NCBI GenBank assembly: GCA_001630475.1 | Contig: KV419486.1 | Span: forward strand, 1 to 28,890 | DNA length: 28,890 nucleotides | Direction of reading: 5' to 3' | Source: Sistotremastrum niveocremeum HHB9708 | Lineage: Eukaryota > Basidiomycota > Agaricomycetes > Sistotremastrales > Sistotremastraceae | Part shown: positions 1,383 to 27,039 of the stretch, one piece after another | How positions within the stretch are numbered: position 1 is the stretch's first letter | Layout: the number at the start of each line of letters is the position of its first letter | Notes under the pieces: model-generated | Told to the model about the DNA's origin: nothing | The model's database searches: none | What the model saw: only the letters and a program-made list of their open reading frames with translations | Translations under genes and position numbers: made by a program

Positions 1383-4300
1383 ATGCCTCGGGCCAAAGCT
1401 AAGGATCCCCACGGGCTACAGCCATCCGGCTATCCCTGGGGGATTATCCGTGTGACAGGATATCCGCGTGACAGGATAGCCGTGACAGGGCCCATCCGAG
1501 GATGGAGGATGGAGGGCCTGGATTTTCGAGGATATCCGGATATAAATTAATATATTTATTATTTTATTTATTATTTTATTTATTATTTATATTATATATA
1601 TTATTATTTTAATCATTTATATATACATTTTCGATTATTTTTATTATTTTATTCGAATTTTTCGGACCTCACCACAGCCTGCAGCCTGCATCCAGCCTAG
1701 TGTTTGCAAGTCAGGTCACGTAACCGCCAAATAACCGTGACTTAGCCGTAACTTAACCATTTGTGACCTAACCATGGTTAAGGTCATGGCTCAGAGCTGG
1801 TGGTCAAGTCACAGTCATGGACCTCCCAGAAATCCTTGACCGCTTGCCTTAACCAATATGGGTAGATCCTTGTCTGCAGCCTTCCCCAGGCCTTCTGGTG
1901 TGTTCTGCTTGTCATATACATCATATATGAGGTCCAAGAACCCAGATTAAGTAGTAAAAAGTGGAGATTTATGACTTTTTTCAGGTCATAACCGCATTAA
2001 CCGGTCAAAGTCAGGTCATGGTCACCCAATTTTGGCTTAACCGTGACCGTTTGCGGTTATAGGTTACAGCAAAACCCCAAAAAATAACCGTGGTTTGGTT
2101 ACGGTTAGGGCCTCTGAGGTGCCCATAACCTAACTTAACCCGACTTTCAAACACTAATCCAGCCCTACATCCAGCCCTCCATCACTCAATCCATCCCCAA
2201 GCTGCCCATTTCCACCACTGACAGTCTTCTCCAAGGGTCTACACACTGTCTTGAGGTTGCTGAGCGACGTTGTCGATGAGGAAGGGGGTCCAAACGATGC
2301 TTGAGGCCGGTCGGTGGTGTTGGAGAGAGGCAGGGGACGAACAGCTGAGTTTGAAAACAGTCCGCGCGTCGTTTGTTGATCGTGTTTGATCAAGTTTGAT
2401 CACGGTCGGATCGCGGGAACACATATGTAAATAGTGAAAATAATATATATATTCGAAAATTAATATATATATTAATATATATTAAAACAAATAATATATA
2501 TATTAATATCCTAGGATGATCCGGATAATCTCGGATATCCCCGAAAATCTCGGATATCCCCCCCATTTTATCCGAGGATGGGGGATGGGCCTCCGAGAAA
2601 TTCCGGGGATATCCTTATCCTAGGATATAGCCCGTGGGGATCCTTAGCCAAAGCAACTGGTGGCACCGCAAAGTCAAAGACTGCTGCTGCTGCTGCTGCG
2701 ACCACCGCTGCAAAAAGCGGTACAAAGCGCAAGAACGCGGACGACACCGTCAAGTCTGTCGATCAAGAGACTCCCCCCAAACGTCAACGTGGAACCAAGG
2801 AAAAGGAGAACCAGATACCCCCTGCACCTGCCCCAGAACGTATGGCAACAAGATCCAAGCGAACTCCCACCGAGCGTGGAGAGCTTTTGAGTACGTGCCC
2901 GTCGTCTTCGTCATACTGATTATTGATATTAATATTGAGTAGCTCAGGAGATTACCAAGTCCAACTATCGACGAGCCTCCCAAGCAAGCAAGAAAGCCGT
3001 CACCAAGGAAGTTGCACAAGCCAACGAGCGCGCCGACGACGTCCAAGATCGCCCTCAGACTTTGTCAACAAGAGAGCCGGAGGTCCCTCCTCGTCAACAG
3101 AGAGGTCCTCTTCAGTCGTTTGAAGGAGATGATGAAGAACCTGAGGCAGAGGATCATCACGCCGAGGGACAGGGTGGTGATTTACCCGATTCAACAGTAA
3201 GTCCGGTTTATCCTCGTGGAGCTATTGCCAGGTTTCTAAATAGAGTTCTTCGATCGTAGTTTCAGGTCGTTCCGCATGCGAGAACCACTCGGGGTTCTGC
3301 TAACGGTGTCGGTCGATACTCTCAGACTGGCATAGATGGCCAACGAGCCATTGACGTTGATTCTATGGAGTCTTATAGTCGAGGATCCTCCCCTAATGGA
3401 AAATCTTATGAGCATGGCATGAGAGCAGCGGGAGAAAATACTTCTGATAGCATTCATTCTTCAACACCGGCCTCCCTTCATCATGGCAGTAGCCAGTCTG
3501 GTGCTTCCAGCACTTTGAGGAACCACTCCTCTTATTATCCGAGTCCCTCTCGGGATCGCTCTCGCAGCCCTCGTTATCGTCGCGAGAGATCCAGAGGAGA
3601 TCGTCGTCGATCGTACAGCCGCTCTCCTCGAGTCAACAATTCGTCTCGATATGGAAAAGACTCCGATTATCGAGACACAAGGACTCCTCCCTCTCTTCGC
3701 TATCGTAGTCAAAGTCGAGAGAGAAGCCACAACAGTGACTCACGGGGTCGCTCTCGAGTTGCCACTCCTCTCCACGGCGCAAGCCGTAACAGGCCTGCTA
3801 GTCCACGCCGATCTCAATCTCCACCCAGATCTGGGCTAACGGAACGTTATTCTCAGAACTCTCGCCAAGCAGACTCGGGCCGCAATACCCAGGCCCCCGC
3901 TCAGAGCGGTTCTCAGATCCAGATCCGCAACTCCTACGTTGCGGGTCCCAACATTATCGTCCATGGAGGCGGTGGCGGAAGCAGTCAGGGGGACCAAGGC
4001 AGCTCGAAAGGTCGAGATAACATCAATCGTGGGAATGATCGTGGAGATCATCGCGGTGGGCCCAGAGAACATCAGCAGCCTCAAGGTGGTGCGGGTGGCG
4101 GCGGTGGCGGCGGCGACTCGAGTTCCTCAGATGAAGAAGACAATGGCGGCGGCGGCGGCGGTGGCGGTGGAGGTCCAGGTGGTCCTGGCGATGGTGATGG
4201 AGACAGTAGCGGGCCTGATGATCAACCGGATGACGACGATGTGGATGACGAAGATGACAGACCTAGACGTCGCGGTCATGGAATTCCCTATCCTCCTGAC

Positions 4301-5421
4301 ATCGATCCCTTCTATCTATCTCCCACTGGGAAAGAGATCCCTCTCCGTAACCCTCAAATCACAACGGGCAAAGTCTCCGCATGGCAGTACCACGAGCAGT
4401 ATCGGAAGACCTTCTCGAAGTCTTGGAAAATTTTCATCGTCTCGCTGCTTCTCGAATGTCTCTTTCCGGATCCTGAGGGAGAGCGAAGACTGGCAATAAA
4501 AGCCTGGCAAGAAGCTTGCGACAGCGATCAGGTGTCGGCAAATTATGGATATGATGACCTGATCATCAGTAATGTGAGTAAAAATCATCCACAAGACTTC
4601 TGCTTACCTGTTCCCTTAGATCTTGCAGAGGGTGCCGCAGACTCGTAGCAAGCTCAAATCGACCGCAAGATCTTGGGTCGGAAGCTTCGGTCTAATCAAG
4701 ACCACGCAGAAGTCGAAGATGGCTGAGAATCGCAAGCTGCATGATAATCTGGTCAAAAAAGGACGATTCGTAGTCAGGGTACGTACGATAAACCACCCAG
4801 AGCCTATCTGAGAACTGTCGTCAACCCACAGGAACCCAATAATGCTTCGGACTTCCGTGTTTATCAAAACGCTGCAATCGCTGGAGTTCTTCGTGATGCT
4901 TTCTTCAAGAAGAGAGGTGTAGGTGATCTTGCTCGTCGGAAGTTCGATACCCTGCGGCCGGAACTCATCGCTGCGGCCTGCGCAGCTGTAAGTCAACCCA
5001 ACGATTGTCTATCGTCTCTCCAGATCTCCATCACTTACCGATGATCCCTATAGATCGAGAATGCTATCAACGAATATGCGAAGGGTTATTTTAAGGCGGA
5101 AGACTTCACCGCTGTCGATTACCGGTCTGCGTGGGCGATCCATCTCCAAACGCTGGAACGCTTTGGAAACTCGGGCAGAACTCCCCACCGCGCCCTGGAG
5201 ATTCTCTTGATGGACCTGCATGCGGAATTATAGTGCGTACTTTATCCTCCATCCTGTCAGCAATCTCACTCTCAGCTGCCAGCCTCGACCTCGCTCCCAA
5301 TCCTGAGGAGATGGCCGATGTCGCTCCCAAATTCGATGACGATCTTCTCGCTCAAGCTGCTGATGGTCTTGCCGATGGATACGAAGGCGATAACGAAAGA
5401 GGATTTGGCGTCGGTGCTTAG
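1383..5421 (+). CDS. RS/Gly-rich protein with C-terminal DUF6532 domain, exon 1 split by a transposon
   Basis: Seven exons are inferred: 1383-1399 joined to 2655-2890, 2943-3196, 3266-4573, 4620-4778, 4832-4987, 5054-5232 and 5283-5421. All phases agree and the uninterrupted product would be about 815 aa. After MPRAKA the N-terminus has a poly-Ala run from a GCT repeat (about 2682-2700) and a basic stretch (KRKNADD). Exon 3 encodes an RS-type region (SPSRDRSRSPRYRRERSR), then poly-Gly and Asp/Glu blocks. The C-terminal 270 residues match DUF6532, a domain of unknown role in Agaricomycetes. Landmarks are FIVSLLLECLFPDPEGER, LKSTARSWVGSFGL and the FRVYQNAAIAGVLRDAFF stretch. Introns are 46-69 nt. 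At exon 3 an alternative acceptor at 3259 would add Phe-Gln in frame. The mRNA may end earlier at TAG 5231-5233 if the last intron is retained. The insertion puts a stop at about 1548-1550 in the original reading frame. RS regions usually bind splicing factors or RNA, so a nuclear role is inferred only. Confidence 0.65.
1400..2646. mobile_element. Non-autonomous hAT-like element, 1,247 bp, in exon 1
   Basis: The ends are a perfect 19-bp inverted repeat, TAAGGATCCCCACGGGCTA at 1400-1418 and its complement at 2628-2646. The element is flanked by an exact 8-bp target duplication, GCCAAAGC, at 1392-1399 and 2647-2654. An 8-bp duplication is the hAT superfamily hallmark. Subterminal zones repeat GGATATCC and GGATAATCC-type motifs in both orientations (about 1440-1540 and 2510-2620), typical of transposase-binding arrays. 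The interior is AT-rich and contains a second element at 1698-2156. No transposase frame is present, so movement would need an enzyme in trans. The perfect termini and target duplication point to a fairly recent insertion. Confidence 0.88.
1698..2156. mobile_element. Nested hAT-like MITE, 459 bp
   Basis: The left end TAGTGTTTGCAAGTCAGGT (from 1698) and the inverted right end TAGTGTTTGAAAGTCGGGT (ending at 2156) match at 17 of 19 positions. The flanks are an exact 8-bp duplication, ATCCAGCC, at 1690-1697 and 2157-2164. The inside is built of short direct and inverted repeats around GGTCATGG, TAACCGTGACC and GGTTAAG, with no coding frame. It sits within the larger element at 1400-2646, so it landed in that element, here or in an ancestral copy. 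Its ends are unrelated to the host element's TAAGGAT ends, which implies a different transposase. Confidence 0.85.
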
Positions 5422-6646
5422 AGGTCGTCGTTCCGTTCAACCGGAGTTCATGATCGTTTTTGGTAGTTTCCCCACCACCGTTCTTCTCCCTTCACTTGTT
5501 ATCTCGGACTCACTCTTTTTTCATTTCTTTTCGAAGATCGCGCTCGCTGTTTCCTCTTTTCTCTCAACGTTCTCTTCGCAAAACTCCCCCTCAAAAAAAA
5601 ATCGAAAAATCGAAAATCGTCTCTCCTTCAATTTACTCCGCTTTTCCCCCACTTCCACACTCTTTTCTCTTCGAAATCCCATCGTTTTCTCGACCGTCGT
5701 TCATTTGATTTTAGCGTAGTGAACTGTAGCGAATATCTCGCTTTAATAGAGTCGCAAATTTATCATTGTTGCTCCATAATCAACCGTTCCAACCAAAGCC
5801 GCGCAAAGAAATTCCTATAACGAGAAAGCAGATTTGATTGATACTGGAGATAATGGCATTTGTCAAGAAACGATATGTGGGAGCTATGTATGTGCTACAG
5901 AAGTGGGGCATAGCGTCTGGCTGTAGATCCATAGCCCTCAAGAGCAAGGACCTGGCTATCGATGCTATTGTCGCTACAGCATGCTCTGTAGCGTCGCGTA
6001 GCCGGCAGTATCCGGGGGCCGGTTTCCTGATGTGCGGAGGTTCGAGGAGATGGATACTGAGGGGCTATTAGGGGCTCGGGAGAGGAGTGTGATGATGATG
6101 AAGGTGGGTGTCGATGACTGGGAAGGATGATGGATGGATAGGGGCACAAAAGAAGGTGAGGGGATGCTCGTCGGAACGGTGTGGCGAAGAAGCGATCGAA
6201 GGACTCGGATTCGAGTTGTCCTGCACAAATGGTATAAACGAGTGGTGGAGTGAGTAAAAACTGATCAACAGAGGTGCGAAGATGACTGTGAATGATGAGC
6301 TCGTCAAGAGCTATGCTGAAAGCGAATAATATAAAAGGTATGAAGAGCGAACGGGGTACAACGATGGATAATGCCCCCCTGCGTCGGTCACCAGATGAAG
6401 GAAACGAGATCACAACTGTGTCTCGTAGCGCATGTGCAGGCTCGAAGGGGGGCGATGTATCCAGGGATGTATTGGGGCGAATCAGGAGACGTACATGATC
6501 AGTCTCTAAACTAGCGGTACTTATAGTGAAAATAGAGTCAATGTATCGCATGGACATGAAACATAGAAGCTCTAAAAGACAGGAGAATAATCACATGTCC
6601 GAGATATGCGGAAAACGAGCATGAGGAAAATAGGGGAAGGAAATAG
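5422..6646. other. Spacer between DUF6532 gene and DUF6535 copy A
   Basis: The first 300 bp are pyrimidine-rich with A-runs and probably hold the 3' untranslated region of the DUF6532 gene. A 220-codon open frame lies on the minus strand at 5895-6557. It is rich in Ser, Pro and Arg, has no recognisable domain, and is not supported by any paralogue. The counterpart of exon 1 and of the promoter seen before copies B, C and D would be expected just upstream of 6646 and is not detectable. Confidence 0.4.
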
Positions 6647-9183
6647 GGGAGGATGAACAGAATTCCCTACAGTACGACATCGTACTGGCGAAGACGAAAG
6701 AAAAGGCCGATGAATGGAATTCAACGATGGACGTTACTCTGATCTTTGTGAGTGAGACGTTGTTCAAATTGATCGTCCGATACTGATTGTGCCTAGATCG
6801 CATTGTTCTCGGCGGTGCTTACCGCGTTCCTTGTCCCCGCTACCCAGGCCTTGCTCCCCAGTCCTAATGACTCGACAAATTCCACCTCTTCGTCTCCCCC
6901 ACCTCTCCCTGCTCGATCCGCTGAAGCAGTGTGCGCATTTTATTATCTATCACTTATTACCGCAGTGAGTCCTGATACCAGCGGTGTACCAATCGCATAC
7001 TAAATGAATCCCGAATTAGATCATTATTGCGGTTTTATGCGCGCTCGGCCGCCAATGGGTTCGGAGATTGACGATCCGACCGAACGTAAAAAGTTGGAGG
7101 GCCCGGACGTTCTGGCACATCGAACGTATGCGTCGAGCAGAACGTTGGATCCAGATTCTCATGGAGGTCCTCTACCGGATGTTGTTGACCTCCATAGGAT
7201 TGTTCATGACAGCACTTCTTTATCAGCTGTGGAACCTCTCGGGCTCGTTTGAGGAAAGAGCGACCATTCTCATCGCGACTTGGTCACTGGGGGTCATTCT
7301 GGTGATGGGCATTGTCTGCACTATGATTGCAACAACCTATCATGCCGTACGTTACCAGGGCTCGGTCTTTGAGGGAATGGTCAGTAAAGCCATCATCGGT
7401 GAAGCCGATTTAGGCCTGTTGAAGATTGTGACTCGCGGTCGAGAAGCGGCCGGCGCCATGAAGCGCAGGCTTAGGAAAATCAAGCCCAGAGCATGGTTGA
7501 GATATGGATGGGAACGACTTCGAACAGCGAACTTGATGGATAGTTTGAAGACAGTAATGCAATGGGTTCGGGCGGACGTCATACGGAAGGACCGGAGGCC
7601 GTTTGTCTGCTGGGTTAAGCACATAGCCTGGAGGGGTCTAGTGAGACTCGTGAACACCGCGAGGTCTCGGGTTGAGAAGATGAAAGACTGGGTTCAACTG
7701 AACAGAATCAAGGTCGAATGCGACTCCGCTGAACGACTGCTGGGAACGTACCTGGATCAGATCGCAGACGCTAGCGATCCTACCCTAGTGGAACGAGCAG
7801 CTGCTTCATTCCGGTATCGGGACTGGGTGCAATATGGAAGCGGTTCAACAGATCTCCTGAAGAAAGTCATCGAGCGTTTGACGGCGACCGACATGTCGAT
7901 TCGCGCGAGGGAAACGGTCGCTGTACAACTATTCCGGTTTCAATCTTGGATTGTCCCGAGACAGGAAGAGATCGATACCTTCAGAGAGTATGAGGGGTGG
8001 AGGATTACGGGAGTAGGGCAGCATGCGCGGTTAAAAAATTGGAAGGAGGAGGCCATGCAACATGACGAAGAAGAGCGCCGGGCAATTGAATTAACTGGAC
8101 TTCTTATCGAGCAGCACACGGTTGGCATCTCTCAATTTTTCAGTCCAACTAAGGATAACTACCGCAACATTCTGGCTCTCATATCTCTCCCATCCGACGA
8201 ATTTGTTGCTAAGTGCCTCTGCATCAGTGACCTAAACGAGGATTTTGGCGACCACGAAAAGATTCACAACTGGGCTATGGAACATTGCGGCAGGCTCATT
8301 GCTCGCCAAACCGACGACTTTACCCCGATTCTCACTCACATTGATCTCATTCGGACTATGAGAACTTTGCTCCGAGGGAAGGATAGCCGTGGTTCGTTAT
8401 CGTATAACGACATACTCCCAAGGATTATCGGCAATCGGGGTATTGAAGTCCTTGCCTTCCTTAACCAGTGGCTTTCCGAAAATCATTCCAGCTTTCACTC
8501 GGCCGCTTTTCAATGTGCATTTGAATCTGCTCTTCGCTCTCACTCAAACGCCGAGCTCGATATTTCCCCTGCCATTGCCTACATGGCTCAAAATGTACAG
8601 TTGCATTATTGGGCCAAAGCTGCTGATGCATTGCTTGCCTACCTCGACCATCATGACGTCACGACATTGTTGGACCATTCCGGGATCCATCTCTTCCTCC
8701 AGCAATGTGTGGATGCAGATTTTGTGGATCAGTATGGTAACCGGCTTTACTACTCCCGACAGGGCAGCGACGATATTCAAGAGTCCCGGCGGCGTTCTGC
8801 CCAGGCCCTCCTGGAGCGTAAGTTTTGCTCATTATTTCCTAAATTCGACTAACAAGTAATCAGGTTATCAAACCATTTTTATGCCCTCGAGGTCTCCACA
8901 TCGGCACTCAGCAACGATCGACGACATCGAAGCCAATCCTGAAGTGGCTGAAGAAGATCTCGGGTGTGGTACACATGTCCCATGGGATCCAAACGAGTCA
9001 GACGATGAAGACGCATCACCTCTAAAGAATGTCAAGGACCGAGTTCCTACCCCCTACCCCTCTTCGGACGACCTTGTCGAAATGACTTCTTCTCCGTCAC
9101 TTGTACCGGCTTCCGCTTCTCCCGAATCTGCGGTGCCGGTCTTAGACCATAGTGTTATCGACATTGACGATAGCGAGGCATGA
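6647..9183 (+). CDS. DUF6535 membrane protein, copy A, first exon missing
   Basis: Four exons align with exons 2-5 of the complete copies: 6647-6747, 6797-6964, 7020-8817 and 8864-9183, giving 795 codons plus a TGA stop. The acceptor at 6644-6646 keeps the phase of the paralogues, but exon 2 is 30 nt shorter than theirs. No exon 1 match exists upstream. A downstream in-frame ATG at 6727-6729 would start the protein just before the first helix. Four hydrophobic helices are visible: ALFSAVLTAFLVPATQALLP, AVCAFYYLSLITAIIIAVLC, the LMEVLYRMLLTSIGLFMTAL stretch, and TILIATWSLGVILVMGIVCT. The tail keeps SDPTLVERAAASFRYRDWVQ and FVAKCLCI. The C-terminus (VPVLDHSVIDIDDSEA) lacks the HHVINMT motif of the other copies. 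This is the most diverged member. It may be a 5'-truncated but otherwise intact gene or a recent pseudogene. Confidence 0.7.
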
Positions 9184-9582
9184 TCGCACATACGAGACAT
9201 TTCATTTTGACACTACTGTCTTTGACCAGCAGAGCATTTTCTTTGAATGAACGAACCATTTGCTGGGCGAGGATGATCCTTCTTCCTGTCAAGGGAAGGT
9301 CGTCGAGAGCACTAATAGGACTTATAGTCAATGTACCGACCCAAGTCATCGCGAAAGACGACGTATTCATTGTCGATATTGATATGAGAATAAAACTTGA
9401 TAAAAAGGGAACCAGTTGTGCCTGGAATAGCCATGAGTTGAGCGCCAGAAGCATGTCAGCGCGATGCACGCACCGGACAGGTCGATCTCCTGTCGGGCCT
9501 TGAATCCTTTCACCCTCCTTGTCTCCTAACATCACCATCCCCCACCCCCTCTCCCAGTCGTTCCTCTCAGCCGTCCGAAAGT
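9184..9582 (+). promoter_or_regulatory. Spacer and promoter of DUF6535 copy B
   Basis: From about 9410 to 9510 the sequence closely matches the upstream regions of copies C and D. Shared words include GTGCCTGGAATAG, GAAGCATGTCA and GATGCACGCACCG (about 9463-9475). A pyrimidine-rich leader (CACCCTCCTTGTCTCCTAAC) then runs to the ATG at 9583. The part before 9400 follows the stop codon of copy A and shows no gene of its own. Confidence 0.5.
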
Positions 9583-12397
9583 ATGTCTGAGCCGCTGCCG
9601 CCGACAGAATCTGCATCGCAAGAATCAGGCACCCCGAATGTCGATCATGATAGATCTACGATCGCTTTAATGACAAATCAATTTGGCGCTCTGCTCGAAG
9701 CAGTGAAAGAACTCAACGTTACGATGGGCGCTCAAAAAACGACGATGGAGGGAGTGAAGAGCACATTGATTGAGCATGGCGCTAAGTTTGATGTGTTGAT
9801 CAAAGACGCGTTAAAAAGTGAGCCATCCGTGTTTTAGAATTGATCGGTGATTCTTGACAGGGGATTCTAGATGATCAACCTTATGATGAGAAAGCATTAG
9901 ATGACGAATCCACGTGCCTTGCGCTATACGATATCGTGATGGCGAAGACGAAAGAGAAAGCCGAAGAATGGAATGGAACAATAGACGTGACCCTCATCTT
10001 CGTACGTTCTCATGCGATATCTACCTTTGACAATAATCAGTAACGTGATGTAGATCGCATTGTTCTCGGCTGTGCTCACCGCGTTCCTGGTCCCAGCAAC
10101 TCAAGCCCTTCTACCCAATTTCTCCGACTCCGAAACTTCTGGAAACTCAACGTCGACATCTTCACAAGGACCTCCTCTGCCTCCGAAATCCGCTGAGGCC
10201 GTCTGCGCCCTATATCATTTATCCCTAATCACCGCCGTAAGTTGTCTTGGAAATAAACGATGGCTAACTAAAACGCTTACCTCTTGATAGATAATCATAG
10301 CAGTGCTCTGCGCACTCGGCCGTCAATGGGTCCGGAAACTGACAACGAAACCCAAGTTGAACAGCTGGAGAGAACGAACCCTCTGGCACATGCATCGTAT
10401 GAAACGAGCCGAAGGCTGGCTCCGAGCCCTCATGGAAGTGCTCTACTGGTTCCTTCTCCTCTCTATCGGACTGTTTATGTCCGCAATCCTCTATCAGCTC
10501 TGGAATCTCTCTACATCCTTTGAAGAGCGTGCGACTATATTGGTCGCTACGTGGGGTGTGGGCGTCGTTCTGGTGTCAGGCATTGCGGTGACGATGGTTG
10601 GGACTACGTATCATGCGGTACGATACGAGGCTTCCGTGTTTGAGGGAGTTGTGAGTCGAGCTATTATTGGGGATATTGATCTAGGCCTTGTGAAAGGCTT
10701 GAAAAGCGGATATCGCCAGATACGAAAGTCGATATCAAGAGGATGGAGGAAGATTGGCGGGGTGGCGTTGATGGAGCGATTGAAGGGTGGTAGGAAAACG
10801 ACGCGACAGTCGCTTTGGATTATGAGGGAGGAGAGCAGGTCGACCGACAAGTCAAGCGATACATTTTCGTGGCGGCGGCGGCGGCGTGCGGCGGAAGCCC
10901 TGCGGAAGACATTCGACTGGATGAAGACCTTCCGGATCAAAGTGAACCGACACTCGGAGGATGAGCTGATGAATGCGTACTATGAACTGCTCGCAGACAC
11001 AAGCGATCCAATCCTCCTCGAACGAGCAGCCGCGTCTTTCTGCTACAGAGACTGGGTGCTGTACGGAGAAGGATCGATTGATCAGTTGAAGAAGGCCCTT
11101 GATCGATTGATGGCGACGGACACTTCATTTCGGGTCAGAGAGACTGTGAACGCGCAGTTTTCTCGGTTCAGTACATGGATCCCTGTGAGACGGAGAGAGA
11201 TAGAGGAGAAAAGGGAATTCAGAGCGTATGCTGACAGATGGGCGAGAGAAGGAGACGAATTTTTTATGGCAAGATCGAAGACAAGAGAAGAAGAAGCGAA
11301 GAAAGACGAAGAGGAAGAACGCCGAACAATTCAATTGACGAATTTCCTCCTCAGCCAACGAAAAGACAAAATCTCTCCCTCCTTCACACCAACGTGGGAA
11401 AACTGCGCTGACATCTTGGACCTCCTCTCTCTCCCAATCGACAAATTCGTCGCCAAGTGTCTCTGCATAGACGACCACAACAATAACTTGGGAAAACACC
11501 ACAGCATCTTCCATGTCTCTGTTGAGCATTGCTTCCGTCTCCTTTCCGCGAACAAATTCGATGACGTTACGCGCATCGTTTCCCACGTCGATCTCTTTCC
11601 CGCCGTCAGATCCTTTGTCCTCGCCCATTCCTACGATTCCCGGTACGATCGTGTTTTCAGACTGATCATCAGCGATCGCAGGTCCGATGTTCTTCGCTTC
11701 CTCACCGAATTCCTCTCACCTCCTCGTGATTGGTCTCATGTCAATCCTGGCAACGCATCTTCTGTCTTTCTGATCGCTGCTGGCTTCCCCCCTCAATTCC
11801 CCTCCGACCTCGATCTGTCCCCAATCATCGCACACATCGCTCGACATCCTCCATGGTGGAATTGGCGCGAAGCTAGCGAAGCACTGATTGCCTGTCTCGG
11901 CCAGTGCAACATCTCGACATTGTCAGATCCTGCCAGCGTTTATTACTTCCTTCAGCAATGCGTTCATCTAGAATTGTCTCCCCCTGAATGGAGGCCTAAG
12001 GATGCAATCCGCCGCGCCAGCTCGGAAACTCGCGACGCTGCTTCAATACTCTTGCATCGTAAGTTTCCCCCCTTCTCTTATCCAAGCCATCTAACGTGCC
12101 TCAGGACACAAAGCTTTCTTTGCTCCCTTCATTATTCCCCTCCCTCCTTCCCCTCCGCTCACACCATCCGACAACGCCATCTCCCTGAACGGTCACAATT
12201 CAGATTTGGATTTTCCGCTTCTATCGGATTCTGTCGATATCCCCGACGCCGTCCCATCACTTCCCATCGACACCCTCGACGATTCTACTACTGTAATCAC
12301 CTCAGTTGCCCTCGATCGTCCCGGACTCCCTTCTAGCTCATCTACATCGCACGCTGACATTCATCATGTCATTAACATGACGGATACTGTCCTTTAA
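9583..12397 (+). CDS. DUF6535 membrane protein, copy B, complete
   Basis: Five exons are placed by paralogue comparison and splice signals: 9583-9817, 9871-10001, 10054-10236, 10291-12058 and 12105-12397. The product is 869 aa. Residues 1-78 hold a Ser/Pro-rich start and a likely amphipathic helix (FGALLEAVKELNVTM) with an IEHGAKFDVLIKDALK segment. The DUF6535 domain starts near residue 80 (DQPYDEKALDDESTCLALYD). Helices lie at about 121-143, 168-197, 231-253 and 266-291. From about 320 to 770 comes a soluble tail with SDPILLERAAASFCYRDWV, a charged coiled-coil-like stretch (KTREEEAKKDEEEERRTIQL), FVAKCLCIDDHNNNLGKH near 570-587, and DLSPIIAHIAR. The last exon is Ser/Asp-rich and ends with HHVINMTDTVL. 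The biochemical role of DUF6535 proteins is unknown to me. The start follows the shared promoter block. Copy D is its closest relative here. Confidence 0.85.
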
Positions 12398-12856
12398 TAT
12401 CTGATCAAGTCGTATCGTACGTGTTCGCGGCCATCTGCGCTCTTCCTTTTCATGTAACACCTACATTCGTAGACGATATCTCCAATTAATAATCTGACGT
12501 CGCCTTTGTCTTTGATATCATCACTCAAGATAACGGACAGATCGCGTCATTCTCGCAGCAGTTCGAAGTTGCAGCCTGTTGTAGAAACAAATAATGACTC
12601 ATGCACAGAGAGTCGAAACGCTCTCTGTGACTTTTTTGGCGGTATCTTTTTCTCGGAGTACGAGTCTGTTCTATTGGTGTACAAAATATGGTGTAACTGA
12701 TTTACTATCCATGTAAATCGAAGCTGGCTATGAGCTTTGACTTGGAACAATACATTGCATATTCGCCGGATGCAGCATTGGCACAACTCAGTTGCATTTA
12801 GCATTTTCGTCAGGGACACATAACTTCAAGAAACTCAAGGCTTCGTATTTAGCACG

Positions 12857-14440
12857 TCAAAGAGCATCACGAGAGGATACAGAGCTTGCGGCATCATCAG
12901 TCCAGAGAGAATCGCCGAGTACGATTGCGATTGATGCGAAATCCAGAATTGAGTATGGAATGAGATTCAAGCATTGATCGAAATCCAAGTCCGGCTCCAA
13001 GAAGACGCCGTTAGAGACAGGCATGAGGGACCTGAACTGGTTTCGAGCCGATCGAGCAAAGCACATTTGGGAACGAGCATTCGGTTTGCTGTGCCCTAGT
13101 TATCAGGATGAAGGCAACGGACGAGATTGGCACCAGAGATCAAAGTTGGAAGAAATTTTACGTCGTGGTGTCGTATTCGTCCTATCTCTTCGCATTTCTT
13201 CGACGTTCGTGGAGGATGTGTTCGATGTTCATGTCGGATCCCGGATTCGGAACGTGGGCTAGTCAGCGAAGTCAGTTCAGAGACAATAAAGTTCAGTTTC
13301 GAGGAAATCTTGCAGAAGAAGCGAGAGATAAAGACAGGAGGAAAGCCGAACAGCCAGCAGATCGCAAGTGATCGTGAACGTCTAAGAAATGAAGACGGCG
13401 GGGTCCTGAGGTGCCGGAATCACTATAAGAGTCCCAGCAGTGTAGATCTTGCATTCAATTAGACGAAATCCGTCGTTTGGCGACTTGAAGACCCAATGGA
13501 TGTCGGGTAATGGCCCGAGTCCAGAGATAAAGCTATCTTGAGGGATGTAGTTCTTAAAGCGACTTTTAGTATTTGATGACCTGACTTGAGACGCGAAGAC
13601 ATGAGCGAGATATCGGAGGAGAGAGGAATGCTGAATGCAGGATGAGGCAGAGATACTGGAAAGCTGGCTGATACCGATAGTACCTTAGCCTCTTAAATCG
13701 TCGTCAGAATGGTGACACGTACCGAGAGGAAGACACGACTCTCCTCATCCTCACATGTTCGAAAGCTGCTTCTGGCTCTGCAACATCCACGCCGATGCAT
13801 AATCCACCCAATGATCCACGGCTTGAGAGCGACTGATTTGCAAAGATCGGCTTGAAGATCGCTGAAGACGTGGCGACCGAATGGACTGGCAGAGCCATTG
13901 TATGAGAGAACCGACCCATCCCCAAGTTCAGGATGATGATAGAATCGTAGAGGCATCAGGAAGTGAGGTCATTATATCTGCGAAGACCGGAGATGAGCAT
14001 TGATCTTGACTGACGAATCTGGAACTGACTCAGAAGAGGGCCTTCATGAGATGGGATTTGCTATTCGACGCCGAGACATATCCACATCAGAACCGGGAGA
14101 GATGTACTGGGGTCTTCAAACATCCAACTCAGACCCGCTTGAATGAGATTTGATGAGGCTCTGGAGTCATATGGCGGATGTGGACATTTTTGATAAGTGT
14201 CAATCAGCGAGTTTTTTGACCGAGAGAATGGGTTGATTCGAGAACTTGGATTGACGGCGAGATAAAACCCTTCTAGGTGGTAACGGTCTCTGGGAATGTA
14301 TCAAGACATCCGGGGCTTCGAGAGCGGAATGGACTGAAGCCAAATGGAACTCGCGATCGAAGAGACGAGCCTGAGAGAGGTGCTTACATCATCAAGATCA
14401 TTTCCTCTGCTACCTTCAACGAGCAGTTCAACTCTCGCTG
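12857..14440 (-). pseudogene. Relic minus-strand spliced gene, unit 1
   Basis: Pieces of a minus-strand gene are visible because they match the other duplicated unit at the protein level. From 5' to 3' they are an exon ending at 14388 (LNCSLKVAEEMILM) with a GTAAGC donor, an exon around 13725-13900 (ALPVHSVATSSAIFKPI, then RRVVSSSR and a GTACGT donor), and a last exon ending at the TGA at 12857-12859 (FDQCLNLIPYSILDF, IAIVLG, DDAASSVSSRDAL). Frames between these pieces are broken, and I could not assemble a full model or name a family. The matching frame and stop in both units argue that this once encoded protein. Confidence 0.4.
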
Positions 14441-14839
14441 CAGCGATTTGATCACAGGATGGCTTTGGTCTGGGATACCCCTAGAGTGACTATTGATACG
14501 AGGCAGTCTTAAAATTGTACACCTGGATCGGGTGTTTCGTGCCTGGTTTCGTGGGTACAAAATTCTCACTTTTCTTCGAGCTCAATGTCAACAATCTAGC
14601 AATTCTCTATCTAAGTAGATCGGGGCACAACACAGTGGTATTATCCGCCTTGACTTCCACTACGACGAATCGCACGCATAAGTCACAGTCTTATGATTCC
14701 CCTATTCAGGACGCGCTGGCGACACCCTCGGCGTCCCGGGACCAAAATTTTCCCCTGGCAACACATGATCGACTCTATTCGAAGACTCTATTGACAATAT
14801 GATTGAATTCTCTGATGCGACACGTGCGTTTTAGGCGCG

Positions 14840-15500
14840 AACCATCGCTGCCGCGGAGAAAGGTCCAAAACGCTCGGGACCGAGTGAGTTATATTTTCGC
14901 AGGGTCCTCTCACACCGACTGACAAATATTGTTCGTATGATAGTGCAGCGGCTGTCTCTCTATCAAATACTCTCTCGTCAACATGAACGGCTTACGAAAA
15001 CGGGCCTTGACCAACTTCATCCTAAATCTGAGTTTTCCCACCCAACATCGACCCCAGAAGTGATAGCCTATTCATCAAATTTGCCAGCATTCGGACCATA
15101 CTCGAGTATATTCCGCAACTCATTTAGAGGTCACTTTTGCCAACTCTCCCTTACCGACATCTTCTTGAGAGCTCCGCGAGCGTCGTTACTTTCACACATG
15201 GAATATTCTCCACAACGGCGCGTGATTGATTTCACCGACAGAATGGATATATTACTGTCTCAGGCACGGGCTTCGGATAAAGACGCAATCAAAGACCATC
15301 CACCGATCGATCAATCCTCTTTTTCATTTTCCTCCAGTGCGGCAAATTCCTCGCGGATAAATCAACTTGAACTTGCCTGGCGAACCTTGGACAGTGGTTC
15401 AAGTCTTGCAACATTTATGAAAGTGTGCAAGTCTAGCAAAAATTTCAGCGCAGAAGATGCACCTGACAGTGTGTCGCTCGAATGGTGCCATCCAGGATTC
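14840..15500 (+). pseudogene. Relic plus-strand gene fragment, unit 1
   Basis: An exon reading TIAAAEKGPKRSGP ends at a GTGAG donor at 14884. A TAG acceptor at 14941-14943 leads into CSGCLSIKYSLVNMN, which soon meets stops. The second unit has the same exon (IASKEKVPSGSGT), an intron at the same place and a CSSTLLNQESPGDMN continuation. A longer open frame at 14937-15515 in another phase is probably chance. No family is recognised. I infer a decayed gene of which only the splice junction and short blocks persist. Confidence 0.3.
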
Positions 15501-15520
15501 CGGGGGACACGCTAAGACGA

Positions 15521-15925
15521 AGCACGAAGAACCTGAGAGAGTATTTGAGGGTAAATTTCCAGAGATTTTCCTGGGCTTGCAATCTGCGAAAACTCGACAT
15601 GACATTTGTGGTGCTTGATCGTAGAGAGAAAGTAGACGATTGAGACCCATAGATTTTTTTCGAACGAGTTATTGGATTCGGAAGGCCGCGGGATCAAAAG
15701 AAGCGCCGGCACAGCCATAGTATTACGTCAGATTCAGGACCAAGGCGCGAAGGCGCGCAGCAGTTTTGCTCGAAAATAAAAGGAGAAGTCCCCAACGTTC
15801 AGTTTGATCATAACCAAAAAGGAAGAAAAATTGACAGGAAAAGTCTATAGCGGTCAATAAGATGACGATCGGCCGATCCTCTTCTAAAATGACCTCGCCA
15901 TTGCTAAATTGAAGGCATATCGATC
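15521..15925. other. Spacer before copy C, no gene seen
   Basis: Only short unsupported open frames occur, and no repeat of note was found. The sequence separates the end of duplicated unit 1 from the promoter block of copy C. Confidence 0.4.
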
Positions 15926-16077
15926 CAAAATGGGCATAAGATGTGCCTGGCACAAACAAGACATGAGCGTTAGAAGCCTATCATCGCAATGCACGCACCG
16001 CACAGCTCGAGCTCTGGTCGGAATCTGAATCCACCTTGTCTCGAACCCCCATCATCTCTCGTCTAAACTCCACACCC
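15926..16077 (+). promoter_or_regulatory. Conserved promoter block of DUF6535 copy C
   Basis: This region shares GATGTGCCTGG, ACATGAGCGTTAGAAGC, ATGCACGCACCGCACAGCT (15989-16007) and CACCTTGTCTCGAAC with the upstream region of copy D, and more loosely with copy B. Conservation in noncoding sequence next to each ATG suggests core promoter and 5' leader elements. No canonical TATA box is seen. Confidence 0.55.
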
Positions 16078-18887
16078 ATGTCGGACCCAACCCCTCCACC
16101 AACGGAGCCTACGTCGACAACGAATGCAGATGGCGAAGCCCATGAAGCATCGGTAACGGCGCTATTGACGAGTCAATTCGGTGCACTACTGGATGCTGTG
16201 AAGATACTGAATGTCACCATGGATGGAGTGAAGACAACGCTGGTAGACCATGGGAAGAAGTTTGATATCTTGACAAGGGACGCACTGAAAAGTAAAGTTG
16301 CAACAATGCATATCAGAAAAGACGCCGAAAACTGTCTGTAGATGATCAGGCATACGATCAGAAGGATCTTGAGGATGAATCCACGTGTATGGCTCTTTAC
16401 GATATGGTCATGGCCAAGACCAAAGAGAAAGCGGACGAATGGAAAGAAACGATGGAAGTTACACTGATCTTCGTGAGTCATGTCAGGGCGTGTTTAGGAG
16501 CATTCAGTGAATTAGGACAGATTGCTTTATTCTCGGCAGTACTCACCGCCTTCCTCGTTCCTGCTACCCAAGCCCTGCTGCCAAACTCTGGCAATTCCGG
16601 CAATTTGACCCTATCTTCTTCACAGCGTCCTCCCCTACCCCCTCGATCTGCCGAGGCCGTCTGCGCATTTTATTATCTGTCGTTGATAACTGCCGTGAGT
16701 ATTGATTGGAATTTCGCGATCTTGGGAAACCAACCTACCAATACACCAGATCATCATTGCGGTGCTGTGCGCTCTTGGCCGTCGCTGGGTGAGAAAATTA
16801 ACGACCAAACCAAATGTCAAGACCTGGAGAGAGAAGATGTTCTGGCATATCGAACGTATGCATCGAGCTGAAAGCTGGCTCCAAACTCTCATGGAGGTCC
16901 TATATTGGATGCTCCTCTCCTCAATTGGGCTTTTCATGGGCGGGCTCCTTTATCAGCTATGGAACCTATCTGGATCCTTTGAGAAACAGCCCCCGATTCT
17001 TCTCGCGACTTGGGCGCTGGGCGTCATCCTTGCCTCAGGTGTTGCGTTCACTATGGTCGCGACAACGTATCATGCTATCCGCTATGAGGCCTCGATCTTT
17101 GAAGGGCTTATCAGCAAACTCGTTGTTGGACAGGCGAAGACTGTGCATCCGGAAAGTAGTGGAAGTATCGGAAGGTGGCTCAGAAGCAGAGCGGCGAAGG
17201 GAAGAAAGTGGTTTGCAGAGCTGAAGGTTGATGAATCCTTGAGAAGTGGATGGGCTCGGGTGAAAACCGTCAAACCAGGAGATGTTTCAAGGATCCAAGC
17301 GCTTATGATCAGGAAGATGTGGACGGTGTTCAACGGGTTTGCCAGACTTGTGAAAGGGGAGAAAGTTCTGGCAAACTTGAAGATGAACTCTATGATGAAA
17401 GCGAGCCACTGGATTGAAAGGAACCGAGCCGAGGTTGAATGCGAATCTATAGACCAGCTGCTCTTGACGTATCTGGACCAGATCGCAGAAGCCAGTGATC
17501 CGTCTCTACTGGATCGTGCGGTGGCATCTTTATCGTATCGAGACTGGGTACAGCATGGAGACGGATCGGTGGAACGATTGCAACAGGTTTTTAGGCGATT
17601 GATGGCGACTGACACTTCATTTCGTGTGAAGGAAACGGTCAGCGCCCAAATTTCGCGGTTCAGCGTGTGGATCTCCGAGAGACGGGACGAGATAGAGAGG
17701 AATAGGAGAGAGAGAGCACAACAAGACGGACTGGCGAGAGAGGGAAGCGAGTTCTGGATAGCAAGATCAAGGGAAAGGGAAGCAGAAGCGAAGCAAGACG
17801 AAAAACAAGAGCACCGAGCAATCGAATTGACGAAATTCCTCCTCAACCAGCGGACAGACAGAATCTCTCGCTGGCTCACTCCAACGTGGGAAAACTACAC
17901 TGACATCTTGAACCTGCTCTCTCTCCCATTCGACAATTTCATGGCCAAGTGTATATGCATAAACGACCACCACAACAATTTGGGAGACCACAAAAAGATT
18001 TTCCTGGCCTCTGTCGACCACTGTCGTGATCTCCTCGAGAGCAAGGATCACGATGACGTCACGCACATTCTGATGCATCTCGATTTCTCTTCTGCCGTCA
18101 AATCCTTCGTCCTCGCCGCTACCTACTTTCCCTTCTACAACGATATTCTCAGGTTGATTGTCGGTGATCGCACCACTGAAGTCCTTCATATTCTCAACGA
18201 AATTTTCTCGACTCCACGGGATTGGTCCGGTGTCGATCCCAGTGGCGCATCCTCTGTTTTTCTGATTGCTGCTGGCTCTTCCTCTCAATTCTCCTCTGAC
18301 CTCGACCTTTCTCCTATCATTGCACACCTTGCTCAACATCCGTCGTGGGAAAAATGGCGTCAAGCTAGTCAGACCTTGATGGCATATCTTGTGCAGAGTC
18401 AACTTTTGACACTGTCAGATCCTGCCGGCGTGCATCATTTCCTTCGGCAATGCGTTCTCCTAAGATTGGCTCCACCTCCAAACTCATCTTTCAGGGAAAT
18501 TCGGTCCGCGACCGTAGAAACTCGCGAAACTGCCGTGATGCTCCTGGATCGTGAGTTTACCTTCTTTGTTCCTCAAATTTGTCTCATTTTGCTTCAGGAT
18601 ATGTCGCCTTCGTCGCTTCCAGTATCCCTCTTCCCCCTTCCCCTCTATCAATTTCAGACGACATCGTAACAATAAACAGTCAGGATCCAGACCTGGATAT
18701 TCCGAATCTATCAGATTCTGATGGCTCCAACGAGGCAGCCCCATCTCCTTCCATTTACACCGTCCACGATCCTCTAACCCCCCCGCCCGATCCTCTTGTA
18801 ATTCCTTCCACTCCGTTTGCATCACCCTCCTCTGCCACCCATCATGTCATCAACATGACCAATCCGGAATTGAGATTTGATGATTGA
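16078..18887 (+). CDS. DUF6535 membrane protein, copy C, complete
   Basis: Exons are 16078-16291, 16342-16472, 16521-16694, 16750-18550 and 18598-18887, coding for 869 aa. The ATG at 16078 is chosen over upstream in-frame codons because it opens with MSDPTPPPTEPT, like MSEPLPPTE of copy B. Predicted helices are near residues 114-136, 159-188, 220-245 and 255-281. The loop after helix 4 and the stretch around residues 300-370 differ most from B and D, so C is a separate lineage within the cluster. The tail retains SDPSLLDRAVASLSYRDWVQ, a basic/acidic coiled stretch, FMAKCICINDHHNNLGDH and PIIAHLAQHPSW. The C-terminus ends HHVINMTNPELRFDD, slightly longer than in B and D. Its downstream region does not carry the relic genes found after B and D. 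Confidence 0.85.
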
Positions 18888-19869
18888 TACGGTCGTATCT
18901 ACCACGTCAGTGATGCGGTTCTTTCACGATTTTGGATCCTCATCAATTTTCGGTCTTTAGACCAAATTCTTCAACGTCGTCCTCCACGACCGTTATAAAA
19001 GAAATCAGTTGTCAACCAGAGTGCGCAATATTCTTGAATTTTTCGGCTTGGATGTACAAATAATCTGTCGGACGCGATTCATTTACTATTGATAGTGCAC
19101 ATCCAGTCGATGTAAAGGAGCTGGGACATTATTATGGAGATTGACATAAATCGAAACATCGCTTGATCTTGAATAATAGACTCCAACAAGACTGACATCA
19201 GAACCAGTCTTCAGCACCCTGTCGCGATAGGGTTTTGTAGAAATACGAGCTTCAGAAGGTCAATCAGGATCAGACAGAGACGACAATCGAAAGGCAGAGA
19301 AGATGAAAGAACCAGACAAAATGGGTCAATCAAGAAAATATCTGCAGGTTTTCCCATGTGCCTCGAAGGTTGCTGTCGTTCAATAGCCTGCAAGCTGGAA
19401 CATATAGCTTGCAGTTGCCCAACTTCAGAAAAAGAAATAGAATGGCCTGAAGAGATGCATCCGATAGAAAGGACCGAGTACGACGACCGGGCAATTCCCT
19501 TGATTTGCCACTGTATGGTGGATATGATAAGATGGTAGGAAGGCGCATAACTCGGGTGTCAGGCTGAGTAAATATGTCAAGATGCCAACTTCTAATGGGA
19601 GTTGATTAAAACTCGCAATGTCGACAGCAGAGAACATTTTGTGGAAACATGACGCCTCAGAGCAATTAGCATCAGCCGCGCAGACCAAGGATGAGAGTCA
19701 GGGATAAAGGCACGATGGACGCCCAAATGCTTCCGCACAAATAGGTCAAATGAAATTGCGTCCGGTCGACGGAAGAAAGTTCAGAGAAGAGTGCAGATCG
19801 ACGGCAGGCATTGGCGGATCTTCAGGAATCATATCCAATTTATTAATGATTGTGATAAATCAAGAACAG
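18888..19869. other. Spacer between copies C and D
   Basis: The first 150 bp resemble the 3' flank of copies B and D only weakly and probably include the transcript end. Around 19330-19690 short open frames exist on both strands, some Cys-rich, but none has paralogue support or a known motif. No gene is called. Confidence 0.4.
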
Positions 19870-20022
19870 AAAAGGGAATGAGATGTGCCTGGAATAGAAG
19901 TGAGATGAGCGTTAGAAGCATGTCAACAAGATGCACGCACCGCACAGCTTGAGCTCTGGTCGGGGTCTGAATCTACCTTGTCTCGAACTACCATCATCCC
20001 CTCATCCAGTCCATCGTCCGCC
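19870..20022 (+). promoter_or_regulatory. Conserved promoter block of DUF6535 copy D
   Basis: This is nearly the same sequence as before copy C: GAGATGTGCCTGGAATAG, AGATGAGCGTTAGAAGCATG, ATGCACGCACCGCACAGCT at 19931-19949, and GAGCTCTGGTCGG. The order and spacing to the ATG are kept (start about 75-90 bp after the 19-mer), which supports a common promoter inherited through duplication. Confidence 0.55.
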
Positions 20023-22840
20023 ATGTACGAGTCTTCGCCTCCAGAGCCCATCCCACAGCCGACACTTGAGGCTTCACGAAGAGACGCGGACGCTAACACG
20101 TCGACGATGGCTTTACTAACGGATCAATTTAGCGCGCTATTAGGCGCTGTGAACGCGCTGAACGTTACCATGAACGGGGTCAAAACCACGTTGGTAGACC
20201 ATGGCACGAAATTCGATGTTCTGATAAGAGATGCATTGAAAAGTGAGTCATTGACACAGAGCCTGATGATATCAGACTAGATTGACGGTTGTCGTAGATG
20301 ATCAACCTTACGACGAGAAAGCGTTGGACGATGAATCGACGTGTCTTGCGCTTTATGATATGGTGGTGGCGAAGACGAAGGAGAAAGCGGAAGAGTGGAA
20401 TGGTACGATTGATGTCACGCTGATATTCGTGAGTCAATGTAGATCGTTGGAGTGTTACTGGCGATGGTTACTCACAATTGAAACCATATAATTGTCATAG
20501 ATTGCTCTCTTCTCCGCCGTGCTCACGGCTTTCTTGGTCCCTGCAACACAAGCTCTGCTTCCCAGCTCAAGCGATTCATCAAATCCTGGTTCCAACTCCA
20601 ATTCCACTTCGACTCAAACTCTCCCTCCTCTTCCCGCTCGATCGGATGAGATTGTCTGCGCGTTATATTATCTGTCCTTGATCACCGCTGTGAGTTGCCG
20701 TACATAATTCACGAGAAGATAAATTTGCTTAAAGCGTACCAGATAGTCATAGCGGTATTATGCGCTCTCGGACGTCAATGGGTCCGCAAATTATCCACAC
20801 GACCCGACGTGGCGACCTGGAAAAGTCGAACAATATGGCACGTCGAACGCATGCGCCGAGCAGAAAGATGGATAAAAGTCCTGATGGAGGTCCTATATTG
20901 GCTTCTTCTTGCATCCATTGGGCTTTTCATGACTGGCCTCCTCTTCCAGCTCCGGAATCTTGCCATGTCATTCGAAGGGAGGGCGACAATTCTCCTGGCG
21001 ACGTGGGAGGTGGGAGTTGTTCTTGCCGCTGGAATCGCCGTCACTATGGTCGGGACCACGTATCATGCAGTGAGATACGAGGCTTCGGTGTTCGAGGGAC
21101 TGGTGAGCCGAGCCATTGTTGGGGATATTGATGTCGGTTTGGCGAAGGGCTTGGAAAGCGGATACGGGAAGATTGGAGAGTTGGTGTCGAAAGGATGGAA
21201 GAAGATTGGGGGAGCTGCGTTGATGGAGCGACTGGTAGTTCGTTGGAAAACGATCAGACGGTCGCTTGGGATTATGAGGGAGGGGAGCAGGTCGGCCGAC
21301 AACTCGAGTGATAATTTGTGGTGGCGGCGTGCCAGAGAATCCCTACCAAAGGCATTCGATTGGATGAAGATCTGCCGGATCAAGGTGAACCGGGACTCGA
21401 GAGATGAGTTGATGAATGCGTACCTCGAACTGATCGCTGATGCGAGCGATCCGATCCTTCTCGAACGAGCAGCCGCGTCTTTCTGCTACGGCGCCTGGGT
21501 GCAGTATGGAGAAGGATCGATGGATCAGTTGGAGAAGGTTTACAGTCGATTGACGGCCACGGATACTTCATTTCGCGTGAGAGAAACAGTGAACGCGCAG
21601 ATCGCTCGGTTCAGTGCGTGGATCCCTGAGAGACGGAAGCAGATCGAGAAGAACAGGGGAGACAGAGCAGACCAAGACAGATGGGCGAGAGAGGGAGATC
21701 AATATTGGATAGCACGAACCACGGAAAGGGAAGAAGAAGCAAAGAAAGAAGAAGAAGAAGAAGCCCGAGCAATTCAATTGACAAAATTCCTTCTCAGCCA
21801 ACGGAAAGAGTACATCCATCAGCATTTCACTCCAACGTGGGAAAACTGCGGTGACATCTTGCATCTCATTTCTCTCCCATTTGACAAATTCGTCGCCAAG
21901 TGTCTCTGCATAAACGACCATAACATCAACTTGGGAAAACACGGCAGCATCTTCTTTTGGTCTGTCCATCATTGCAACGATCTCCTCGACGCCGACAGAT
22001 CCGATGACGTCACACGCATCCTCTCCCATGTCGATCTCTTTTCCGCCGTCAAATCCTTCGTCCTCGCCCATGGATACGATCCCGAATACGATGATGTCCT
22101 CGAGTTGATCATTGGCGATCGCAGGACTGAAGTTCTTGGCTTTCTTGCTGAATTCCTCTCGAATCCTCGTGATTGCTCCAATGTCGATCCCGCTTTCGCC
22201 TGTGCAGTCTTTCTGATCGCTGCTGGCTCTCTCCCTCGATTCCCCTCTGACTTCGACCTTTCCCCGATTATCGCAACCGTCTCTCGAAATCCGTCATGGT
22301 GGACTTGGCGCGAAGCTAGTGACACATTGATGGCATATCTCGGGCAGTGCGACATCTTAGCACTGTCAAATTCTGCCGGCGTTCATCACTTCCTCCATCA
22401 ATGTGTTTGCCTAGAATTGTCTCCTCCTCAGTGGAACACTAGGGGTGAAATTCGACGGGCCAGCCCCGATACTCGCGAGGCTGCGCTCATACTCTTGCAT
22501 CGTGAGCCCCCCCTCTTTTTCCCCCCTCCCAACCATCTAACGTGCCTCAGGACACGGAGCTTTCTTTGATACCTTCACTATCCCTCTCCCTTCCCCTCCT
22601 CTTCCAGCAACAGACAGCGCCATCTCACTGAATGGTCAAAATTCAGATTTGGATTTCCTCCTTCTATCGGATTCTGTCGATCCCGAGACAGTCCCACCTC
22701 TTCCCATTAACACCCTCGACGATTCTACTACTCCTGTAATCAACTCAGTTGCCATCGATGCTCCCGGACTTCCTTCCAGCTCATCCACATCACTATCTCA
22801 CAATCATCATGTCATTAACATGACAGATCCTGGCCTATGA
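20023..22840 (+). CDS. DUF6535 membrane protein, copy D, complete
   Basis: Exons are 20023-20242, 20298-20428, 20501-20689, 20743-22501 and 22551-22840, coding for 862 aa. The second intron is 72 nt, longer than in the other copies. The start ATG lies inside a longer open stretch but is the first ATG after the shared leader. Helices lie near residues 116-138, 167-194, 227-250 and 262-288. Helix 3 reads LMEVLYWLLLASIGLFMTGL. The region after helix 4 (GWKKIGGAALMERL) matches copy B almost word for word, as does the final exon (DLDFLLLSDSVD to HHVINMTDPGL). The tail carries SDPILLERAAASFCYGAWVQ, a Glu/Lys-rich coil (REEEAKKEEEEEARAIQL) and FVAKCLCINDHNINLGKH. The frame is intact throughout, unlike the relic genes beside it, so the DUF6535 gene appears to be kept by selection. 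Confidence 0.85.
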
Positions 22841-23311
22841 TATCCAAGTACATTTTGTCGTACGTCTTCGGGGTCTTTTGAGCTCGTCCTTTTCATCTTA
22901 CACCTACATTCGTAGACAATGTCTCCAATCAATAATTTGACCTCGTCTTTATCTCTGTTATCATTTCAGATAGAAGTTCATAGAATCACATCGCGTCATG
23001 GTCACAGCAGTTGCAGCCTACTGTAGAACTGCAGCTCAACTCGTGTACATTGAAACGAGCTCTTCGACAACTTTGAAGGGTTTCTTTTGTCCAATACATG
23101 ATCTAGTAAAAGCAAGCACTGTCGTCCGGATTGTAATACAGGACATGACATTGTCCGTATACATTGAGGAAGGCTATGATCTTCAGAACAATACATGGCA
23201 TGTTTGTCAGATGCAACAGTAATATTACAACCATGGATCGAGCTCAGTTGTATTTGGCATTTGCTCAATGAGACATATATTCAAGAAACTCAAGGCTTGG
23301 TATTGAGCACG

Positions 23312-26237: not shown

Positions 26238-26281
26238 TTCACTAGAGGTGCAACCCTAACGGGCAATACGAGTTGTAGCTT
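26238..26281 (+). repeat. 44-bp inverted repeat, right arm (hAT-like end?)
   Basis: This is the exact reverse complement of 55-98. Read on the plus strand from 26244 it begins TAGAGGTGCAACCC and would be the left end of an element running rightwards, into which the 378-bp element at 26334 later inserted. No matching right end was found downstream within the window, so this may be a solo or truncated end. Confidence 0.6.
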
Positions 26282-26333: not shown

Positions 26334-26711
26334 TAAGGATGTTAGATGAGTGGTACCCGGTATTGCATGCCCGGGTACCTGCCACAGGTACCCGCCAAGG
26401 ACAGGTACCCGTACACACAATACCTGCATGTATCAATACCCGGCAGATGCAGGTATTGGTTCTGGGAAATTTTCACCACAGGTACCTGCCTCACCCATAG
26501 GTCTTCAGATACCCCAAATTTTTTATGGCTCCAAATTGCTCAAACAGCTCGAAAAAATTGTTTTAAAAATAGGAAATATATTCTGAATATCTATGGGTAT
26601 ACCTGACAGGTAGCAGGTACCCATGTCAAAATACCTGGCAGATGTGGGTATGGATTCTGAATTTCTGCGCAGGTACCCATACCCGCAAGATATACTCGTT
26701 TAACATCCTTA
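26334..26711. mobile_element. hAT-like MITE, 378 bp
   Basis: The ends are TAAGGATGTTAGATGAGT (left) and, inverted, TAAGGATGTTAAACGAGT (right), with the first 11 bases identical. An exact 8-bp duplication, ATTTTAGG, flanks it at 26326-26333 and 26712-26719. Subterminal regions repeat GGTACCTG, GGTACCCG and ACCCGG-type motifs in both orientations. There is no coding capacity. The TAAGGAT start matches that of the 1,247-bp element in the DUF6532 gene, so both may be mobilised by related transposases. Confidence 0.85.
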
Positions 26712-26751
26712 ATTTTAGGTCTCAAGTGGGTATGGCCACATATTCATCATA

Positions 26752-27025: not shown

Positions 27026-27039
27026 CAAACTGGCAGGCA

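Follow-up and report, generated by a model that had tools for sequence, protein, structure and literature searches.

A nested pair of putative non-autonomous hAT-type elements in the first exon of a DUF6532 gene of Sistotremastrum niveocremeum

The host gene and its interrupted first exon

The window analysed here is the whole 28,890-bp stretch of contig KV419486.1 of Sistotremastrum niveocremeum HHB9708, read on the forward strand. Near its left end lies a gene on the plus strand whose first exon is split in two. The upstream part of exon 1 (1383-1399) begins with the presumed original ATG, in the context TCACTCAAAATGCCTC, and the downstream part was placed by the exon model at 2655-2890. The remaining exons were modelled at 2943-3196, 3266-4573, 4620-4778, 4832-4987, 5054-5232 and 5283-5421. 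The C-terminal part of the encoded protein matches DUF6532 (E = 1.9e-41) and its middle is rich in RS dipeptides; the first-pass annotation, which had called the gene an RS/DUF6532 gene carrying a hAT-like insertion in its first exon, is supported on these points.

To reconstruct the empty site, the insert and one copy of the flanking duplication were removed, and the flanks then joined as ATG CCT CGG GCC AAA GCA ACT, reproducing the in-frame join over GCC AAA GCA ACT that had been described previously. With six introns the empty-site model yields 815 codons with a single stop, located at the end. The view that the gene is otherwise intact therefore holds as far as the open frame is concerned; the exons, however, are those of a predicted model, this being one of 48 remaining acceptor combinations, with the last exon unfiltered and alternative acceptors possible. 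When the insert is left in place, the frame from ATG 1383 meets a stop at 1548, after 55 codons.

No empty-site paralogue was found, the DNA of the gene being without other match in the genome, and no second allele of the locus was found in the assembly. Protein relatives were detected at C41 and C54 (31 and 37% identical, respectively), over parts outside exon 1. The left flank gave no other match except for a short motif.

Other features of the window were recorded alongside the gene. The sequence AGGGGTTTATGCGA occurs three times upstream of it, between 240 and 432 (by eye). At the left end of the contig (55-104) a motif of ∼40 bp was found which recurs at 15 other places, including 26238-26281 of the window; several copies lie near contig ends and the motif is possibly subtelomeric. 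Positions 6600-24500 hold a tandem array of four diverged paralogues, all facing one way; DUF6535 (PF20153) was detected in three of the four main frames, while 7068-8852 gave no match at E 0.001. The introns and the occurrence of the DUF6532 and DUF6535 families point to a basidiomycete.

Two elements, one inside the other

The insert occupies 1400-2646 (1,247 bp). Its two ends form a perfect 19-bp terminal inverted repeat (TIR), TAAGGATCCCCACGGGCTA at 1400-1418 on the plus strand and its counterpart at 2628-2646 on the minus strand, and it is bracketed by an exact 8-bp target site duplication (TSD), GCCAAAGC, at 1392-1399 and 2647-2654. This anatomy had been noted in the first-pass annotation and was confirmed in full, but the accompanying claim of a single insertion has to be replaced by that of two nested elements, one of 459 bp with its own TSD inside another of 780 bp. 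When a 1,263-bp query was compared with its own genome, the outer parts (∼1-306 and ∼766-1258) recurred side by side, while the middle (∼307-765) recurred alone. The inner element lies at 1698-2156 on the plus strand, has the ends TAGTGTTTGCAAGTC and TAGTGTTTGAAAGTC, and is flanked by the 8-bp TSD ATCCAGCC at 1690-1697, which belongs to the outer element, and at 2157-2164. Once the inner element and one inner TSD are removed, an outer element of 780 bp is left, composed of a left part (1400-1697) and a right part (2165-2646), both on the plus strand, and other genome copies align with this sequence from end to end.

A search for further 19-bp ends with different 8-bp flanks, as had been proposed, identified 12 other full-length copies of the outer element, giving 13 with the window copy; partial or distant matches (L063-L066) were excluded from this count. 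All 13 are flanked by exact 8-bp TSDs, with a different target sequence in every case (read by eye), and the window copy is 83.0-96.7% identical to the other 12, gaps ignored. The 19-mer TIR pattern, with up to three mismatches, was found at 18 places in the genome against 3 for a reversed control. The TSD/TIR bracket of the 1,247-bp insert is therefore not a product of chance, since every full-length copy has an exact and different TSD and the pattern matches far outnumber those of the control. The ends of the outer element read TAAGG...CCTTA and follow the family patterns TAAGGTTC[AG]GCACGG and TAAGGTTCCCCACGG.

The inner element, which terminates in TAGTG...CACTA with the end pattern TAGTGTTTG[CA]AAGTC, is absent from all 12 other full-length outer copies and belongs to a more numerous family. 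Near-full-length copies with 93-98% identity were found at 27 other places in the genome (28 with the window copy), and the end pattern gave 140 genome matches against 3 for the reversed control. Twenty-seven copies were aligned (26 of the 27 other places and the window copy); as they are the ones most similar to the window copy, this sample is biased towards close relatives. Among them the TSD is exact in 25, matches in seven of eight positions at L081 and is shifted at L004. Private substitutions number 33 in the 27 aligned copies, with a median of one per copy, and private indels number zero; this low private divergence fits a recent spread of the inner family, as judged from the aligned copies. 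Related subfamilies of 456 bp and ∼505-517 bp carry similar ends.

Both the 780-bp and the 459-bp elements are short, multicopy and non-coding, as is typical of MITEs and of non-autonomous elements in general, and the longest frame wholly inside the insert, among the frames listed, encodes 79 amino acids.

Further arrangements involving these families were seen elsewhere. At L016 (C24:425200-428200) an inner-family copy is broken by a further insertion, with ∼9 bp of the inner copy repeated on both sides and part of the locus reading N. At L091 (C14:807650-809651) a 2,002-bp unit has inner-type ends on both sides of an interior that reads N and is a candidate longer member of the inner family. 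A third family, ∼1.25 kb long and 71% alike to the outer family, has ends like TAAGGTTGCCCACGGGTTA and was found at C1:740626 and C56:105149; its TSD is exact at C56, and none was exact at C1 (by eye). Decayed remnants of this third family are present at 26370-27356 of the window, as stretches of 86-306 bp with 72-75% identity to L067 and L068, and among them, at 26851-26982, lies a piece of the ∼510-bp inner-type subfamily (79-85% identity). This region may represent another and older instance of nesting within the window.

Affinity with hAT elements and the search for a transposase partner

hAT elements carry a TIR motif of the form YARNG. The TIR of the outer element is of this type (TAAGG..., 19 bp), as is that of the inner element (TAGTG..., 24-bp arms with 83% complementarity), and the 8-bp TSDs associated with hAT elements accompany all 13 full-length outer copies and, in exact form, 25 of the 27 aligned inner copies. 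Duplications of 8 bp are also found in other superfamilies, for example P and Merlin, and the Ac group has the target consensus nTnnnnAn. An excerpt of a study of hAT elements gives a TIR length of 5-27 bp for hAT elements and the target consensus nnnTAnnn for the Buster group (PMC3517528). Neither the Buster nor the Ac consensus, nor any other clear one, was found in the 13 TSDs of the outer family and the 25 of the inner family.

The hAT dimerisation domain (PF05699) was detected at 21 places in this genome. At one of these a 4,354-bp unit (C68:52042-56395) surrounds the domain, with the ends TAGGGCTCGGCACG and TAGGGCTCCCCACC and the TSD GCTATGGG, which sits in a locally repeated GCTATGG tract. 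The unit exceeds the size of under 4 kb that is given for hAT elements in the excerpt of PMC3517528. Its ends share 12 and 11 of 14 letters with the outer-family ends TAAGGTTCGGCACG and TAAGGTTCCCCACG, and 10 and 11 of 14 with those of the window copy itself (by eye); they are thus similar and not identical to the outer family, and the interior is unlike the small elements. Among five hAT places inspected with longer flanks, a TA-ended pair with a TSD around the domain was found in one, C68; in 200 mononucleotide shuffles such pairs arose with a frequency of 0.005 for each sequence, a figure to be read against the five places scanned. The candidate pairs at C27 begin with AC and AT. Similar single ends were located by hand at C24 (TAGGGCTCC) and C13 (TAGAGCTCC), 412 and 418 bp behind the hAT domain respectively, and the corresponding end at C68 lies 409 bp behind it.

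A loose end pattern matched seven times in 15 sequences, which represent 11 of the 21 hAT places: twice at C68, once each at C24 and C13, and three times elsewhere (twice in L105 and once, wrongly oriented, in L107), these last three matches being taken as chance. Two-mismatch 15-mer matches to the outer ends were dropped as evidence, with 52 in total against 82 in the control. When ten hAT places were examined with flanks of 1.5 kb, none showed a TIR pair with a TSD around the domain, and these ten places together with L093 were without convincing end similarity to either element (best E 0.004). Inner-type ends paired around a hAT domain did not occur among the matches listed, for ten places with short flanks and five with longer ones, nor was an autonomous element with the same ends as the outer element found at the 11 of 21 hAT places scanned.

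Because the ends near the hAT domain at C68, C24 and C13 resemble those of the outer element, hAT appears to be the superfamily into which the outer family fits best. The inner family appears to fit hAT by its TSD and TIR type alone.

Among known systems, Scooter of Schizophyllum commune, reportedly described by Fowler and Mitton in 2000 as active and as the cause of two gene disruptions, is said to be small and hAT-like; compared by description only, it resembles the present case as a small, hAT-like, gene-disrupting transposon of a mushroom. In Marasmius oreades, an excerpt of the published description lists MarorhAT-4, -11 and -12 as non-autonomous hAT elements of 597-631 bp, with MarorhAT-10 as the autonomous partner (PMC9674265). 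Shared with that system, on the same partial text, are short non-autonomous hAT-type elements of several families in a mushroom, matching TIRs, recent insertions and, as a candidate in the present genome, a partner that carries the hAT dimerisation domain; the differences are that the Marasmius insertions were directly observed in monokaryotic protoclones, whereas activity is inferred here, and that the autonomous partner is known there, whereas no exact partner was found here (PMC9674265). The Drosophila hAT MITE family Mar is given in the excerpt of PMC3517528 as 610 bp long and non-coding, with short TIRs and 8-bp TSDs in most copies, as here, but is an insect family and has the Buster nnnTAnnn consensus, which is absent from the present TSDs. 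By description rather than by sequence, and as far as the excerpt of PMC9674265 goes, the elements reported here are closest in kind to MarorhAT.

History of the insertion and fate of the gene

The insertion had been called recent on the strength of its perfect TIR and exact TSD. These do not date the event, because the window TIR owes its perfection to a T-to-A substitution private to the window copy, at its position 6, and because exact TSDs are present even in copies that are ∼83% identical. In the nearest relatives, L010 and L011, the 19-bp ends differ from each other by two mismatches and one mismatch, respectively. What does speak for youth is the small number of private substitutions in the window copies, 9/780 (∼1.2%) in the outer and 3/459 (∼0.7%) in the inner element, values which set an upper bound for age and which gene conversion could lower. 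On this small private divergence the insertion event would be fairly young.

The most probable explanation (probability about 0.88) is that two separate cut-and-paste insertions brought nested non-autonomous hAT-type elements into the DUF6532 gene. As its anatomy and its 12 sister copies show, the 780-bp outer element inserted into codon 6, duplicating GCCAAAGC, and the 459-bp element, from the other and more numerous hAT-type family, inserted into the outer copy, duplicating ATCCAGCC, either before or after the outer copy's arrival in the gene. Both elements were presumably moved by a hAT transposase supplied in trans. In this nucleus the gene would then be silent, or else its translation would start at one of two remaining ATGs, 2578 and 2842. 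Possible, but on balance unlikely, is a single event in which an outer element already holding the inner one jumped into the gene as a 1,247-bp composite. The similarly low private divergence of the two elements would suit this, and it is also the reason why the order of insertion cannot be told; the inner element, however, is present in 0/12 other full-length outer copies, giving no sign of a mobile composite, and the inner family is numerous by itself.

An older insertion into a dead gene, the frame of which stayed open by chance, appears improbable. It draws some support from the survival of exact TSDs in 13/13 outer copies, by which the TSD is no proof of youth, and from a neutral model in which the chance of an undamaged frame is 0.345 at 1.15% divergence with zero indels, as in the inner family, and 0.15 at 0.65% with 0.1 indel per substitution. 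In the outer family, however, private indels number 13 and private substitutions 135 (∼0.1), and at this ratio a divergence of 1.15% should have produced 3.3 disabling changes, of which none was seen (chance 0.036), the chance falling to 0.003 at 2%. The open host frame favours, without proving, either an insertion more recent than the bound or a gene that is still used.

Under two nested insertions the original frame is ended by the insert, so that translation starting at ATG 1383 could give the original full-length protein only if splicing removed the insert. That the insert acts as an intron and leaves the product nearly ordinary is very improbable. By hand, a possible acceptor was seen where the 3' end runs into the TSD (TCCTTAG|CC), and a weak in-phase donor, GTGTGA, at 1450, but between 1383 and 2655 the sole GTRNGT donor lies at 1898, past the stop at 1548, and an intron of ∼1.2 kb would be long beside the 46-69 nt of the other modelled introns of the gene; the splice-site search within the insert found no good intron. 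An assembly artefact, in which repeats were wrongly joined to the gene, might be suspected from the shortness of the contig (28,890 bp) and from the repetition of both families elsewhere, but is scarcely credible, as a misjoin would not be expected to leave an exact TSD around each of the two elements together with an empty site that reads in frame.

With two in-frame ATGs left, the gene interrupted by the nested elements may be re-started rather than dead. The first of these ATGs is borne by the outer element: an exit frame of ATG 2578 and 22 further codons (2578-2646, plus strand) is open through the 3' TIR in the phase of the host and, as part of a 113-codon frame on unspliced DNA, continues through the TSD into exon 1. 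The product would start MGDGPPRNSGDILILGYSPWGSL, 23 element-coded residues replacing only MPR. The second, at 2842-2844 on the plus strand, is the first ATG downstream of the insert and would give, in the host frame, a protein minus its first 68 residues. Competing upstream ATGs are present at 2425, which stops at once, and 2516, which is out of phase, as is ATG 2585. An exit ATG 63-69 nt before the 3' end, open and in the same phase, is found in 13/13 full-length outer copies, probably because the terminal sequence is conserved, and the chance that such a frame lands in phase with a gene is one in three. That the gene is alive with the element-given start, MPR being replaced by MGDGPPRNSGDILILGYSPWGSL and transcription arising either within the AT-rich part of the element, from a promoter located there, or from one farther upstream, is an unlikely proposition.

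These data suggest that two apparently young non-autonomous hAT-type families are present in one genome, a member of one family being lodged within a member of the other, and that the insertion in this gene is testable for polymorphism between nuclei or strains. Events of this kind are well known, and the locus appears to be a clean and fairly young example, the twist being an in-frame replacement start codon borne by the element. If the exit ATG is unused, this would be an ordinary, well-preserved gene disruption. If it is used, the locus would illustrate in a simple way how a gene can acquire a new start codon from a mobile element in a single step, and the outer family, to judge from its conserved exit frame, may recurrently supply start codons to genes at its landing sites.
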